IMG/VR virus record: IMGVR_UViG_3300031623_000041
Location: 1-25,663 of that record
Length of the DNA stretch: 25,663 nt
Source: a virus
Direction: 5' to 3' (one strand)
In this document: positions 1 through 25,663 of the stretch, one piece after another
How positions within the stretch are numbered: the stretch's first letter is position 1
Layout: each line of letters begins with the position of its first letter
Translations under genes and position numbers: made by a program
Notes under the pieces: model-generated
The model's input: only the letters and a program-made list of their open reading frames with translations
Database searches by the model: none
What the model was told of the DNA's origin: nothing

Positions 1-127
1 TCTTCCGGGCGCGCCACTCTGAAAAATTGATAACGTCTCCAGTTTCGTTTTCGTCGCCATCTTCCAAAATGAAAAGACCATCCTTGCGCTTCTTAATTCC
101 AGATTTTTCCTTCTTCAACTGGATATA
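1..127. repeat. Left copy of the 127-bp terminal overlap
   Basis: Bases 1-127 are identical to bases 25537-25663. A 127-base exact end overlap is what a de Bruijn assembler with k=127 leaves on a circular or terminally redundant molecule. The small-terminase frame reads through the join, so this is an assembly overlap of a closed or circularly permuted genome rather than a biological repeat. Confidence 0.95.
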
Positions 128-1060: not shown

Positions 1061-1261
1061 TTATTCTGTGATATTCCCTGACATTAAAAACGTTTTGAGC
1101 GACTCGCCGGTGATTAAATGTCGGCGCGTTGGTTGAAATGTCTCAAGACGACCATCAGTTATCCATTGGCGGACAGTACGTTCAGATACGTTGAACAGAT
1201 CGCAAACCTCTTCGACCCTGTAAAACCTTCGGTCATTCAGATATGCGTTTGTAGCGTTCAT
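1061..1261 (-). CDS. MerR/excisionase-like helix-turn-helix protein
   Basis: 66 residues from the ATG at 1261. The core FYRVEEVCDLFNVSERTVRQ followed by WITDGRLETFQPTRRHLITG is the HTH_17/excisionase motif: a helix-turn-helix, then an arginine wing. A longer in-frame start at 1348 would add a hydrophobic N-terminus not typical of the family, so the shorter start is preferred, though no ribosome site is obvious. With no integrase in the genome, it is more likely a regulator or a terminase-like binder of the tandem repeat just downstream than an excisionase. Confidence 0.7.
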   Translation of the reverse strand: MNATNAYLNDRRFYRVEEVCDLFNVSERTVRQWITDGRLETFQPTRRHLITGESLKTFLMSGNITE

Positions 1262-1766
1262 GATATTTTTTTGTTGAGGTGAATAGAAAATATGCGACAG
1301 CATCAGCGGCGGCAGTACGATCATCAACGAATAGAAACGGCACACCAAAGCGACTCAACCACGATACAACCGAATGCGTAGCGGCTTCAGGCGTTATCCT
1401 CGAACGATATTCACCATTGCGTAACTGTTGCCAGGACGCTTCCACGACAACACAACGTGCTTCGTACGCTTTCATACGTTGCAACTCTCTTTCGAAGCGT
1501 GAGCGTCCGCTGGTCATGCACCCGATCAAATCTGGCAATGACTTTCGTTCAACGCAAATCAAATCCTCGAATCCTGAAACGGAATAGTCGCCTGTCGGTA
1601 GCGTGTCTGTGATTGTTCGAAGTGGCAACGCCAGCGGAAGTTGTTCGCGAGTGTCAATTACAGCAAGCACGTCTTCAGGTAATAATTTAGGCCGCCGCTT
1701 TCTTGCCGTTGGATGTGGTTTTGGCTCAGCGAATAATGCGTGGCGATTTAGATTAAGCGTTTGCAT
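1233..1766 (-). CDS. ERCC4-type (XPF-like) nuclease
   Basis: 177 residues. It contains VIDTREQLPLALPL, TGDYSVSG (G59-D60) and CVERKSLPDLIGCM, which together give the GD...ERKxxxD signature of ERCC4 nucleases, with E73, R74, K75 and D79 as metal-binding and catalytic residues. Beyond this come SGRSRFERELQRMKAY and SVVSWLSRFGVPFLFVDDR. These enzymes cut branched or flap structures, so it probably resolves replication or recombination intermediates before packaging. It overlaps the initiator by 14 bp and its end overlaps the next gene by 29 bp. Confidence 0.85.
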   Translation of the reverse strand: MQTLNLNRHALFAEPKPHPTARKRRPKLLPEDVLAVIDTREQLPLALPLRTITDTLPTGDYSVSGFEDLICVERKSLPDLIGCMTSGRSRFERELQRMKAYEARCVVVEASWQQLRNGEYRSRITPEAATHSVVSWLSRFGVPFLFVDDRTAAADAVAYFLFTSTKKYHERYKRISE

Positions 1767-2283
1767 TTTCCTGCTGTTTTTTCAGTTTCAGAATATGCCT
1801 CCGATTTGCCTGTGAATTTTTAATATCAGCGGGACTTAATTCACGAGAAGAAAAATTTAGAATATTTTTTTTATTCCCCTTTTCTAAATTCTCTTTCCTT
1901 TTCTCTTTATATAAAGGAGTAACTACCCCCGATTCGGGGACTGTTTCGGTGCCATCCTTGTTGGACTTAGACCCCCGATTCGGGGACTGTTTAACTCCCC
2001 CCGATTCGGTAGTAGTTAGGACGTGATAAATCTGATTGTTTTTAACACCTCCTTTTCCCTCTGTATTTTTCTCAATCCATCCGAAATTAACCAACCTTTT
2101 TGTATAGAATGGAATCTTCTTTTTATGGATCCCGGTATCTTCAGATAATTTTCGAATTGAAGGCCAACAAAGATTATCTGGATTTGGATTTGATCTGTAA
2201 ATTAACCAAGCCAAAACCCTCATATCGTTTGCCGATAATCTGGAATCCATCAATACTTCAATCGGCAATTTAACATATTTCAT
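1753..2283 (-). CDS. Replication initiator, O-like, with the origin inside the gene
   Basis: 176 residues. The N-terminal 75 or so form a winged helix of the HTH_36/O type: MKYVKLPIEVLMDSRLSAND, MRVLAWLIYRSNPN, CWPSIRKLSEDTGIHKKKIP, FYTKRLVNFGWIEK. This resembles phage initiators that bind iterons. Codons about 91-120 carry three GC-rich iterons, and codons about 121-145 are the AT-rich, purine-strand-biased tract. This is the order in lambda O/ori: DNA-binding domain, iterons, AT-rich DUE. The C-terminal part is short and basic and is reduced compared with lambda O (299 residues), so host helicase recruitment may differ. The stop overlaps the next gene by 14 bp. Confidence 0.65.
   Translation of the reverse strand: MKYVKLPIEVLMDSRLSANDMRVLAWLIYRSNPNPDNLCWPSIRKLSEDTGIHKKKIPFYTKRLVNFGWIEKNTEGKGGVKNNQIYHVLTTTESGGVKQSPNRGSKSNKDGTETVPESGVVTPLYKEKRKENLEKGNKKNILNFSSRELSPADIKNSQANRRHILKLKKQQENANA
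1845..1921. other. AT-rich, strand-biased tract next to the iterons (candidate DNA unwinding element)
   Basis: On the minus strand the sequence is nearly all A and G with interspersed T (for example AAAGAGAAAAGGAAAGAG), a strong contrast with the GC-rich iterons beside it. The initial melting region of lambda ori is similarly AT-rich and purine-biased on one strand. Confidence 0.55.
1925..2010. repeat. Iteron cluster, probable replication origin
   Basis: Two exact 22-bp repeats (1925-1946 and 1971-1992), centred on the near-palindrome CCCCGATTCGGGG, and a third partial copy (CCCCCGATTCGG, 1998-2009). Spacings are 46 and about 26 bp. They lie inside the initiator gene and are followed by an AT-rich tract at about 1845-1921. 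These features are those of an iteron-type origin. Confidence 0.7.
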
Positions 2284-2307: not shown

Positions 2308-2430
2308 TTAATTAGACGCACCTTTTTTTTTGCCCCTTGCAATCCTTGCCTTGTGTCTTTTTATAAAGGCAGAAGAAGGTTCCACTTTCATATTTTCTAT
2401 GTTACTACCTGTTAATGTCCAATTAGTCAT
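2308..2430 (-). CDS. 40-residue basic protein
   Basis: Its ATG overlaps the SSB-like stop (ATGA at 2427-2430) and has a GGGGAG ribosome site 3-8 bases upstream. Product MTNWTLTGSNIENMKVEPSS followed by AFIKRHKARIARGKKKGASN, basic at the C-terminus. A run of nine A (codons AAA AAA AAA, 2328-2320) lies near its end; slipping by -1 would extend it into the next gene start. No function known. Confidence 0.5.
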   Translation of the reverse strand: MTNWTLTGSNIENMKVEPSSAFIKRHKARIARGKKKGASN

Positions 2431-3032
2431 TTGCTCCCCTCAGCCAAAGATTCTGCACCCGATGGCATCTGATCCATAATGACAGGCGGTTTTTCTCCAA
2501 TACGCGATTCAACGCCAAACGGTGATTCACCCAAAAACAATTCACGCAAGTCAATTTTGGCCTCGGTTGCTTTTTCAATGGCGATTGCTGGCGGAGCAGA
2601 AATTGGCGGTTCGGCAACGATGGAATAAGTAGTGCCGAGCTTTTCCCCCTCGCGAGTGATCGAAATATTGTATTGACGTGGATCGCCCCATGCTTCGTTA
2701 TTTGCGAGAGTTGTCAGCGCTTGATGAATTGTCGTTTGCGTTATTTCCCAGCATTTAACTGCTTCGTCAGAATAATCCCAAATGGTGATTGCCCAAAAGT
2801 GTTTTGGATCGTCATCGCTTGCGCTTTTGACATCTTTATATGCGTTCATATCGCCGCGTATCGGCGTGTTTCCATCAATGGTATGTTTCCACCCAAGATA
2901 ACCCATTATCGCTGTATGCGCGTGTCTGAAGTCTCCGAGGATACGAATCTTCGAAGTGCCGCTTTGTGGTCTGAAATATATGTTGTTTGTTGTTGGCGGT
3001 TCATAATCTGCCGGTAGCCAATTTGTTGCCAT
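2427..3032 (-). CDS. Single-stranded DNA-binding protein (OB-fold, phage type)
   Basis: 201 residues from the ATG at 3032, preceded by AAAGGAAAATC; a longer in-frame start at 3122 lacks support. It has YFRPQSGTSKIRILGDFRHA, an insertion, FWAITIWDYSDEAVKCWEIT and IHQALTTLANNEAWGDPRQY with NISITREGEKLGTTYSIVAE. This sequence of strands and the 'ITREGE.L.T.Y.V' segment is that of phage-encoded ssDNA-binding proteins with a gp32-like core. The C-terminal 50 residues are Pro/Glu-rich but not strongly acidic at the very end. It would coat single-stranded DNA during replication started at the nearby origin. Confidence 0.65.
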   Translation of the reverse strand: MATNWLPADYEPPTTNNIYFRPQSGTSKIRILGDFRHAHTAIMGYLGWKHTIDGNTPIRGDMNAYKDVKSASDDDPKHFWAITIWDYSDEAVKCWEITQTTIHQALTTLANNEAWGDPRQYNISITREGEKLGTTYSIVAEPPISAPPAIAIEKATEAKIDLRELFLGESPFGVESRIGEKPPVIMDQMPSGAESLAEGSK

Positions 3033-4189: not shown

Positions 4190-4397
4190 TTTCATCCTCC
4201 ATTGTAAAATTAAGCCGACCATCTTTGATTTCTGCGACCGGCAAATCCGCGTTAATGCACCCACATATTTCGCGTTCTTCAACTAATCCCTGAAGTGGCA
4301 AACGTTTCATATATAAAATGTATCCGCGTCCGTCGCATCGTTTGCACGGTTCCACTAATTTTCGAAGTCGTTTTATGTTTTCTTGATCGTCGGTCAT
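4179..4397 (-). CDS. Small zinc-ribbon-like early protein
   Basis: 72 residues; overlaps the previous stop as ATGA. It contains VEPCKRCDGRGYILY, a DnaJ-like CxxCxGxG half-knuckle, followed by REICGC at about 43-46, so four Cys can bind one zinc. The rest is polar. In phages such short ribbons occur beside replication or transcription genes; no defined role can be given. Confidence 0.55.
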   Translation of the reverse strand: MTDDQENIKRLRKLVEPCKRCDGRGYILYMKRLPLQGLVEEREICGCINADLPVAEIKDGRLNFTMEDENGK

Positions 4398-5047
4398 AAA
4401 AAATCCTTTACTATTCTTTCCCTAGTTGGATGTCTCAACTTCCTTTCAGCCTTTAAAATAATTTGACGCATACGCGACTTGGTAATTCCTTTTTCACCTG
4501 TAAGCACTTTTTGCCCTGTCATTTTTTCCACGTTTCTTGCTATTTCAGTAAGTGTTTGTTGAGGCTCATCTATTCCATAGTATGAACGCATGACAGTTTC
4601 TTCCCTTTTAGTTAAAGTTTTGAGCATATCTGAAACAGCATCTCGTTTTTGATCTTCAAAAATAATCTGTTCAGGATCATATAACCCATCTTCCAATAAT
4701 GGTTTGTCTTCTCCAGGCAATATATATTGAGTAATTTCTTCAAAAGACAATTCAGTCTCAGCCTTGTTTGTAAACAAAGGTTTATCTAAATGCTGTATTG
4801 GGAACATTTCGTATGGTGTGACGTTTAAAAATTCAGCAAGTTTTAAAACACTCTGCTTAAATTCGCCTTCTTTTGCCTTTTTTTCACATGAATATGGAAT
4901 AACTTTTAAATTCATGAAATTATAAACTGCCGGCAAACTGACACAGCTCAGTCTTGCTAATTCTGCCGCAGTTTCTATTCCGTTTCTTTTCATGAGCCTG
5001 TAAAGGATGTTATTTTTTACTTTGACTTCAATTCTATAATCTTTCAT
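4394..5047 (-). CDS. XRE-type HTH fused to sigma factor region 4
   Basis: 217 residues in two DNA-binding parts. Residues about 12-83 form a Cro/CI-like helix-turn-helix (RNGIETAAELARLSCVSLPA, then SVLKLAEFLNVTPYEMFP), with a 16-residue insertion near 49-64. Residues about 145-209 match sigma70 region 4: LTKREETVMRSYYGID, TLTEIAR, then ITKSRMRQIILKAERKLRHP, the segment that binds the -35 element and the polymerase beta-flap. An extra 14 residues separate the two helices. Regions 2 and 3 are absent, so it cannot be a full sigma factor. It may retarget host polymerase, possibly to late promoters or to repress the early one. Confidence 0.72.
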   Translation of the reverse strand: MKDYRIEVKVKNNILYRLMKRNGIETAAELARLSCVSLPAVYNFMNLKVIPYSCEKKAKEGEFKQSVLKLAEFLNVTPYEMFPIQHLDKPLFTNKAETELSFEEITQYILPGEDKPLLEDGLYDPEQIIFEDQKRDAVSDMLKTLTKREETVMRSYYGIDEPQQTLTEIARNVEKMTGQKVLTGEKGITKSRMRQIILKAERKLRHPTRERIVKDFL

Positions 5048-6164: not shown

Positions 6165-6180
6165 ATTCCTCTTTGGTTAT

Positions 6181-6204
6181 CAAGTTAAGGTTATTCTTAA
6201 CTTG
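6181..6204. promoter_or_regulatory. Perfect 9-bp inverted repeat at the early transcription start
   Basis: CAAGTTAAG (6181-6189) and CTTAACTTG (6196-6204) with a 6-base spacer. It begins at the predicted start point and covers about +1 to +24, so it is a good candidate for a repressor operator. It could also act as a 5' RNA hairpin; it is not followed by a T run, so it is not a terminator. Confidence 0.65.
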
Positions 6205-6210
6205 AATACA

Positions 6211-6238
6211 ATTATCCTCTTTTGTACATATATGTCAA
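6211..6238 (-). promoter_or_regulatory. Early promoter, sigma70 type
   Basis: On the minus strand: consensus -35 TTGACA (6238-6233), 16-bp spacer, -10 GATAAT (6216-6211; five of six match). Transcription should begin near 6204, 40 bases before the first early ATG. It is the only clear consensus promoter I found, and it faces the early gene cluster. Confidence 0.75.
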
Positions 6239-6273
6239 GCCTTTTTATTGCTTTTTCTCATTTAATTACGTTA

Positions 6274-6289
6274 ATGACTGAAATCATTA
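6274..6289. promoter_or_regulatory. Dyad motif ATGACTGAAATCATTA, candidate operator
   Basis: Arms TAATGA and TCATTA flank CTGAAA; the surrounding CGT(T)AATGA / TCATTACG extends the symmetry with one bulged base. Nearly the same sequence (ATGACTGAATCATT) is found at 952-965 in the other large intergenic region. It lies 35-50 bp upstream of the early promoter. Confidence 0.45.
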
Positions 6290-6409
6290 CGAATCTTTTT
6301 TATAATATTTAGTGGTTATTATTCTAAAATATAACATAACATTGCAAAAAGGACAATGCAACGTAAATATGAAAATATTTAATTGAGGGAAAAATACTTA
6401 GGAGAGATA

Positions 6410-25374: not shown

Positions 25375-25663
25375 CTTCAACTGCGACAATTCCGGCGATT
25401 GCTGTTGGAATCGTTAGCAGACTTGTTTTTGTTACATGAAAGGCCGAACCAAGTTGCGACAAAACTTCTTCGCGACTTAACAATTTACCTTCCAACATTT
25501 CTCTTTCACGCTGAGACTTTAACGCGTCTTCTTTCATCTTCCGGGCGCGCCACTCTGAAAAATTGATAACGTCTCCAGTTTCGTTTTCGTCGCCATCTTC
25601 CAAAATGAAAAGACCATCCTTGCGCTTCTTAATTCCAGATTTTTCCTTCTTCAACTGGATATA
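25226..25663 (-). CDS. Terminase small subunit, Nu1-like (C-terminal part; continues at positions 193-1)
   Basis: Main body of the 167-residue small terminase, whose first codons lie at 193-128 on the other side of the join. After the N-terminal helix-turn-helix comes a charged region with an acidic stretch (LEDGDENETGD), then a long helical, charged segment and a C-terminal part containing TLVELQGQIARIGIADDSDE. The length fits the Nu1 family (lambda Nu1 is 181 residues). In lambda, Nu1 binds cosB and recruits the large subunit through its C-terminus. The end of this gene overlaps the large-terminase start by about 140-160 bp in another frame. That the frame stays open across the artificial ends is the strongest evidence for circularity. 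Confidence 0.8.
   Translation of the reverse strand, partial: YIQLKKEKSGIKKRKDGLFILEDGDENETGDVINFSEWRARKMKEDALKSQREREMLEGKLLSREEVLSQLGSAFHVTKTSLLTIPTAIAGIVAVEDDANVCKEIIEGAVRETLVELQGQIARIGIADDSDETTAETGRSTMGGR
25537..25663. repeat. Right copy of the 127-bp terminal overlap
   Basis: Exact copy of bases 1-127. Removing one copy gives a unit genome of 25,536 bp. It contains the GGGCGCGCC palindrome seen at 7-15. Confidence 0.95.

Follow-up and report, generated by a model that had tools for sequence, protein, structure and literature searches.

The gene at 1753-2283 (minus strand) of the phage DNA analyzed here (the window, a stretch of 25,663 nucleotides) raises the question of whether an origin of replication lies inside the gene of its own initiator and, if so, how the host helicase is brought to it. 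Comparisons with known phages make it very probable that this is an O-type initiator gene carrying its origin within the gene, on the plan of lambda O and of a known kind. Sequence evidence for the origin part of this reading is good; the mechanism of recruitment is a proposal. What is familiar is the O-type in-gene iteron origin, and what is unusual here is its shortness and its apparent lack of a loader, a textbook origin on a very small scale.

The phage genome is a circular assembly of 25,536 bp. Circularity follows from a 127-bp direct overlap common to both record ends (window 1-127 and 25537-25663) and from an independent, near-identical contig (L004, 99.98% over 13.7 kb) that crosses the end junction. 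The phage is tailed, with terminase, portal, head, and tail genes found, and its main genes lie on the minus strand. The replication end of the genome comprises an SSB-like gene, the initiator, an ERCC4-type nuclease gene, and an Xis-like HTH gene. The product of the SSB-like gene, upstream of the initiator (2427-3032, minus strand), matches a family of unknown function (phrog_8542, E=1e-13) as well as SSB families (E=0.004-0.016) and weakly resembles phage single-strand DNA-binding proteins. A relative of this gene occupies the same place in L035 (IMGVR_UViG_3300020465_000703), a 5.5-kb contig reached through TerL relatives. The nuclease gene (1233-1766, minus strand) overlaps the end of the initiator gene and takes the position of P in lambda. 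Between a tail gene and the Xis-like HTH gene, a perfect 10-bp tandem repeat (AGTAAGCGGA, 3.4 copies, 1020-1053) could provide candidate binding sites of the Xis-like protein. Elsewhere in the genome, the product of 4394-5047 is similar to the sigma-70 region-4 end (phrog_351, E=2e-13) and is perhaps a phage sigma factor, and the least stable region (6165-6409), in which TTTGTACATAT is repeated and a perfect 10-bp hairpin occurs, is a possible regulatory region or alternative origin. As a host clue, TerL gave only a distant Phycisphaerae MAG contig (44%), which was set aside as host evidence.

The initiator is an O-like protein of 176 aa with an HTH_36 domain (profile match at residues 15-70, E=2.5e-8), a repeat-bearing linker, and a short basic tail. 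It matches O-like and replication-initiator families (phrog_391, E=7e-11; phrog_270, E=7e-11; phrog_345, E=4e-9). Lambda O matches the Pfam Phage_rep_O N-terminal domain, whereas the window initiator does not and matches HTH_36 alone. The AlphaFold models are of low quality (mean pLDDT 39 and 47), and the fold assignment accordingly depends on the profile match; in these low-confidence models the tail is predicted to be helical. The original prediction placed the repeats in the linker of a winged-helix protein about 120 residues shorter than lambda O. Indeed, the repeats lie inside ORF 1753-2283, past the HTH_36 domain, and the lengths are 176 aa vs. 299. From the AT-rich segment to its end, the window protein has ~49 residues compared with ~150 in lambda O, and the large O-type C-terminal domain after the origin is absent.

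Two exact repeats and a partial third were found in the linker, as first noticed. The 22-bp sequence ACCCCCGATTCGGGGACTGTTT is present with 100% identity at 1925-1946 and 1971-1992; on the coding (minus) strand the iteron reads AAACAGTCCCCGAATCGGGGGT. The partial copy (1997-2018, minus strand) is 68% identical over 22 bp and shares exactly the 12-bp iteron core CCCCCGATTCGG at 1998-2009. The near-palindrome CCCCGA-T-TCGGGG, which had been ascribed to every copy, is complete in the two exact ones and incomplete in the third. Because the exact iterons are 46 bp apart, they fall in different reading frames, and one copy is translated as SPNRG and the second as VPESG. Over 500 synonymous codon shuffles, the longest exact repeat in the gene averaged 9.5 and reached at most 13, compared with the 22 observed. 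Thus, the difference in frame and the shuffles, which never exceed 13, show that coding does not explain the iterons. A long out-of-frame repeat occurs only in the initiator gene (22, with 10 the next longest, among the 24 main window genes tested). A degenerate fourth iteron between the exact copies (TAAGTCCAACAAGGATGG, 9/18) was rejected as no better than chance. Elsewhere in IMG/VR, exact iteron pairs were found only in L004, the near-identical contig of the same phage; a relaxed pattern also matched contigs L016 and L017, where no initiator-like gene stands at the site, and these matches were taken as unrelated.

The best named relative of the initiator is the O-like gp48 of EBPR podovirus 1 (~33% identity), which also has an HTH_36 domain and, in the same linker, six iterons of the form ATAGTCCCGAAAWCGGGAC. 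This form and the window iteron have AGTCCC-N2-AA-N-CGGG in common. A weight matrix was built from the six EBPR iterons alone and scanned on both strands of the window genome (51,034 positions). The exact window repeats rank first and second (score 13.8), ahead of a third-best site in an unrelated place (11.2), and the partial iteron ranks 79th. With column-permuted matrices, both top scores fell inside the initiator gene in only 2 of 2000 trials. The EBPR system differs in its six iterons, in the length of gp48 (308 aa from an upstream start), and in the directly adjoining gp47, which is P-like by PHROG (phrog_109, E=2e-16) and unmatched by Pfam lambda P.

A putative unwinding element, the tract at 1847-1920, lies 3' of the iterons on the coding strand; both the AT-richness and the purine bias claimed for it earlier hold. 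Among non-overlapping 60-bp stretches of the genome, only 6280-6339 is less stable than the 1853-1912 segment of this tract, and the coding strand is 90% purine at 1869-1908. An imperfect inverted repeat (1847-1862/1882-1897) lies inside the tract. In the window phage, L035, and lambda, the iterons are immediately followed by the 45 nt of the initiator gene that are richest in AT. A lysine-rich KRK(E/D) segment is encoded within this AT-rich tract or at its edge, which suggests that this part of the protein is shaped by a requirement of the DNA.

A P-like loader (PF06992, phrog_109), DnaC/IstB (PF01695), and DnaB (PF03796) were all absent from a six-frame search of the window genome, and the DnaD-like profile phrog_186 matched there only the initiator, over the N-terminal part of the profile (19-167 of 308). 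These results agree with the claim that no P-like loader adjoins the initiator, the next gene being the ERCC4-type nuclease. In lambda, the C-terminal domain of O is the part contacting P. The joint loss of this domain and of P would fit reliance on host helicase loading. According to two papers, most bacteria load DnaB by DciA and not by DnaC or DnaI (PMC5109545, PMC12547741), which makes a phage without its own loader plausible.

The L035 contig resembles the window phage in TerL (68% identical), in its tail gene (62% identical), and in its SSB-like gene. In the same syntenic place, L035 has an initiator of 190 aa (L035:722-1291), which is flanked by the SSB-like gene on one side and followed directly by the tail gene. 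Its DNA-binding domain is of the DnaD-like/SPP1 gp38 replisome-organiser type, and its gene contains six to seven repeats of ACAACNAACGGCACA in more than one frame, less striking than those of the window (codon-shuffle p ~0.003-0.013), together with an AT-rich tract. Thus, the two initiators differ in the type of DNA-binding domain and in repeat sequence; the DNA-binding parts are unlike (269 of 300 shuffles score as high). Conversely, their last ~45 residues are 38% identical, a similarity reached by 1 of 2000 shuffles, or by 2 of 2000 when the KRKE start is left out. In the window phage, this C-terminal tail comprises residues 128-176 (1756-1902, minus strand). Phage records and viral contigs yielded no examples of the tail beyond the window phage and L035. 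The simplest reading of this one phage pair would be a swap of the DNA-binding domain and origin with the tail kept, and the tail appears to be the best candidate for contact with the host replisome. More speculatively, the tail may be a portable host-replisome hook, retained in related phages, onto which entire DNA-binding domains and matching iterons are swapped, so that a protein of ~180 residues replaces O plus P, although we consider this broader proposal doubtful.

In the mechanism proposed here, the N-terminal winged-helix domain of the initiator would bind the two or three iterons that lie within the sequence encoding the protein itself, and the resulting complex would strain the AT-rich tract immediately downstream and open it. 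Host factors would then bring host DnaB through the short C-terminal tail, a route suggested by the absence from the phage of both the O C-terminal domain and any recognisable P-type loader. Recruitment of the host by the tail, taken as a step on its own, is put forward tentatively, with chances somewhat below even. Should the tail by itself recruit the host helicase or the loader of that helicase, this would reveal the minimum required for a phage to take control of host replication and would offer a short peptide for assay against DnaB, DciA, or DnaC. Likewise, a true swap of domain and iterons at one locus would show phages changing origins as a unit.

Origin activity at the initiator gene is what we infer from these features, and several points count against it: only two full iterons are present (lambda has four and EBPR podovirus 1 six), the third is weak, and there is no skew signal. 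The cumulative GC-skew peak anticipated at ~1.9 kb failed to appear, with detrended extremes at 356 and 10843 and an amplitude that is not significant. The iterons might instead be operators through which the HTH protein represses its own operon or sets its timing, with the origin elsewhere. Autoregulation is frequent among HTH proteins, the genome is least stable in an intergenic region (near 6.2-6.34 kb), and a 10-bp tandem repeat lies at 1020-1053. However, the iterons lie ~265-360 bp inside the gene and away from any start, the protein matches replication-initiator families, known O-type origins share this place and form, and the 6.2-kb region holds just a 2-copy 11-mer and one hairpin, all of which leaves the operator reading improbable. 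With just two full copies, the repeats could also be a product of chance or a coding duplication without a DNA role, but their different frames, the codon shuffles, and the match to the EBPR iterons make this hardly credible.

Another alternative accepts the in-gene origin and differs only at the loading step. A loader may be encoded and unrecognised, for instance in the small upstream genes, as an ordinary O/P pair that has been rearranged. Several small genes at 3-10 kb match nothing and could include a loader too divergent for profiles, and EBPR podovirus 1 keeps an O/P pair. Nevertheless, the O-type C-terminal domain is absent too, and in the syntenic L035 the tail gene comes directly after the initiator, so a hidden loader is judged unlikely. 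The original prediction suggested a reduced origin that could recruit host DnaA/DnaB directly; its DnaA variant would accord with the lack of a recognised phage loader. This variant gained no support: DnaA-box-like words are not enriched (65 vs. 80 expected by chance) and no exact box lies near the repeats. DnaA recruitment is rated as very improbable. The preferred reading is still an O-type origin inside the initiator gene and, more tentatively, host DnaB brought through the tail.

The same in-gene plan recurs in lambda, phiV10, VaK, Cumys, Decurro, and two Vibrio phages. The out-of-frame repeat test, or an inexact version of it, flags the initiators of lambda, EBPR podovirus 1, Decurro, Cumys, VaK, and the two Vibrio phages; the phiV10 initiator has many repeat copies in a single frame. 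The distant HTH_36 initiators of Phab24, BS46, and MED4-184 have no convincing in-gene repeat array. Thus, in-gene iterons are common but not universal among HTH_36 initiators. A 161-aa protein of cyanophage MED4-117 was considered as a short homologue and rejected, since MED4-184 has one gene of 255 aa where MED4-117 has two shorter ORFs; the MED4-117 initiator (L013:2474-3242) is probably a split gene. The loaderless plan has a precedent in Arthrobacter phage Decurro, which has a very small genome (15.5 kb) and no recognised loader adjoining gp23. This protein, annotated as a replication initiation O-like protein, resembles the window initiator in its HTH_36 domain, its short length (222 aa), and two palindromic out-of-frame 23-bp repeats, and differs in its iteron (CCAGATACCCCCGGGGGGGTACG) and cysteine-rich C-terminus. 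In lambda, iterons and an AT-rich region lie in the middle of O (PMC7466680). Lambda O differs from the window initiator in having four iterons of another sequence, a Phage_rep_O N-domain, 299 aa, and the P loader. The predicted likeness to the lambda O/ori plan is supported by the reading-frame test, the EBPR matrix, the AT-rich tract, and the matches to O-like families: both phages have out-of-frame, near-palindromic in-gene iterons with G/C arms, followed by an AT-rich tract that encodes KEKRK.
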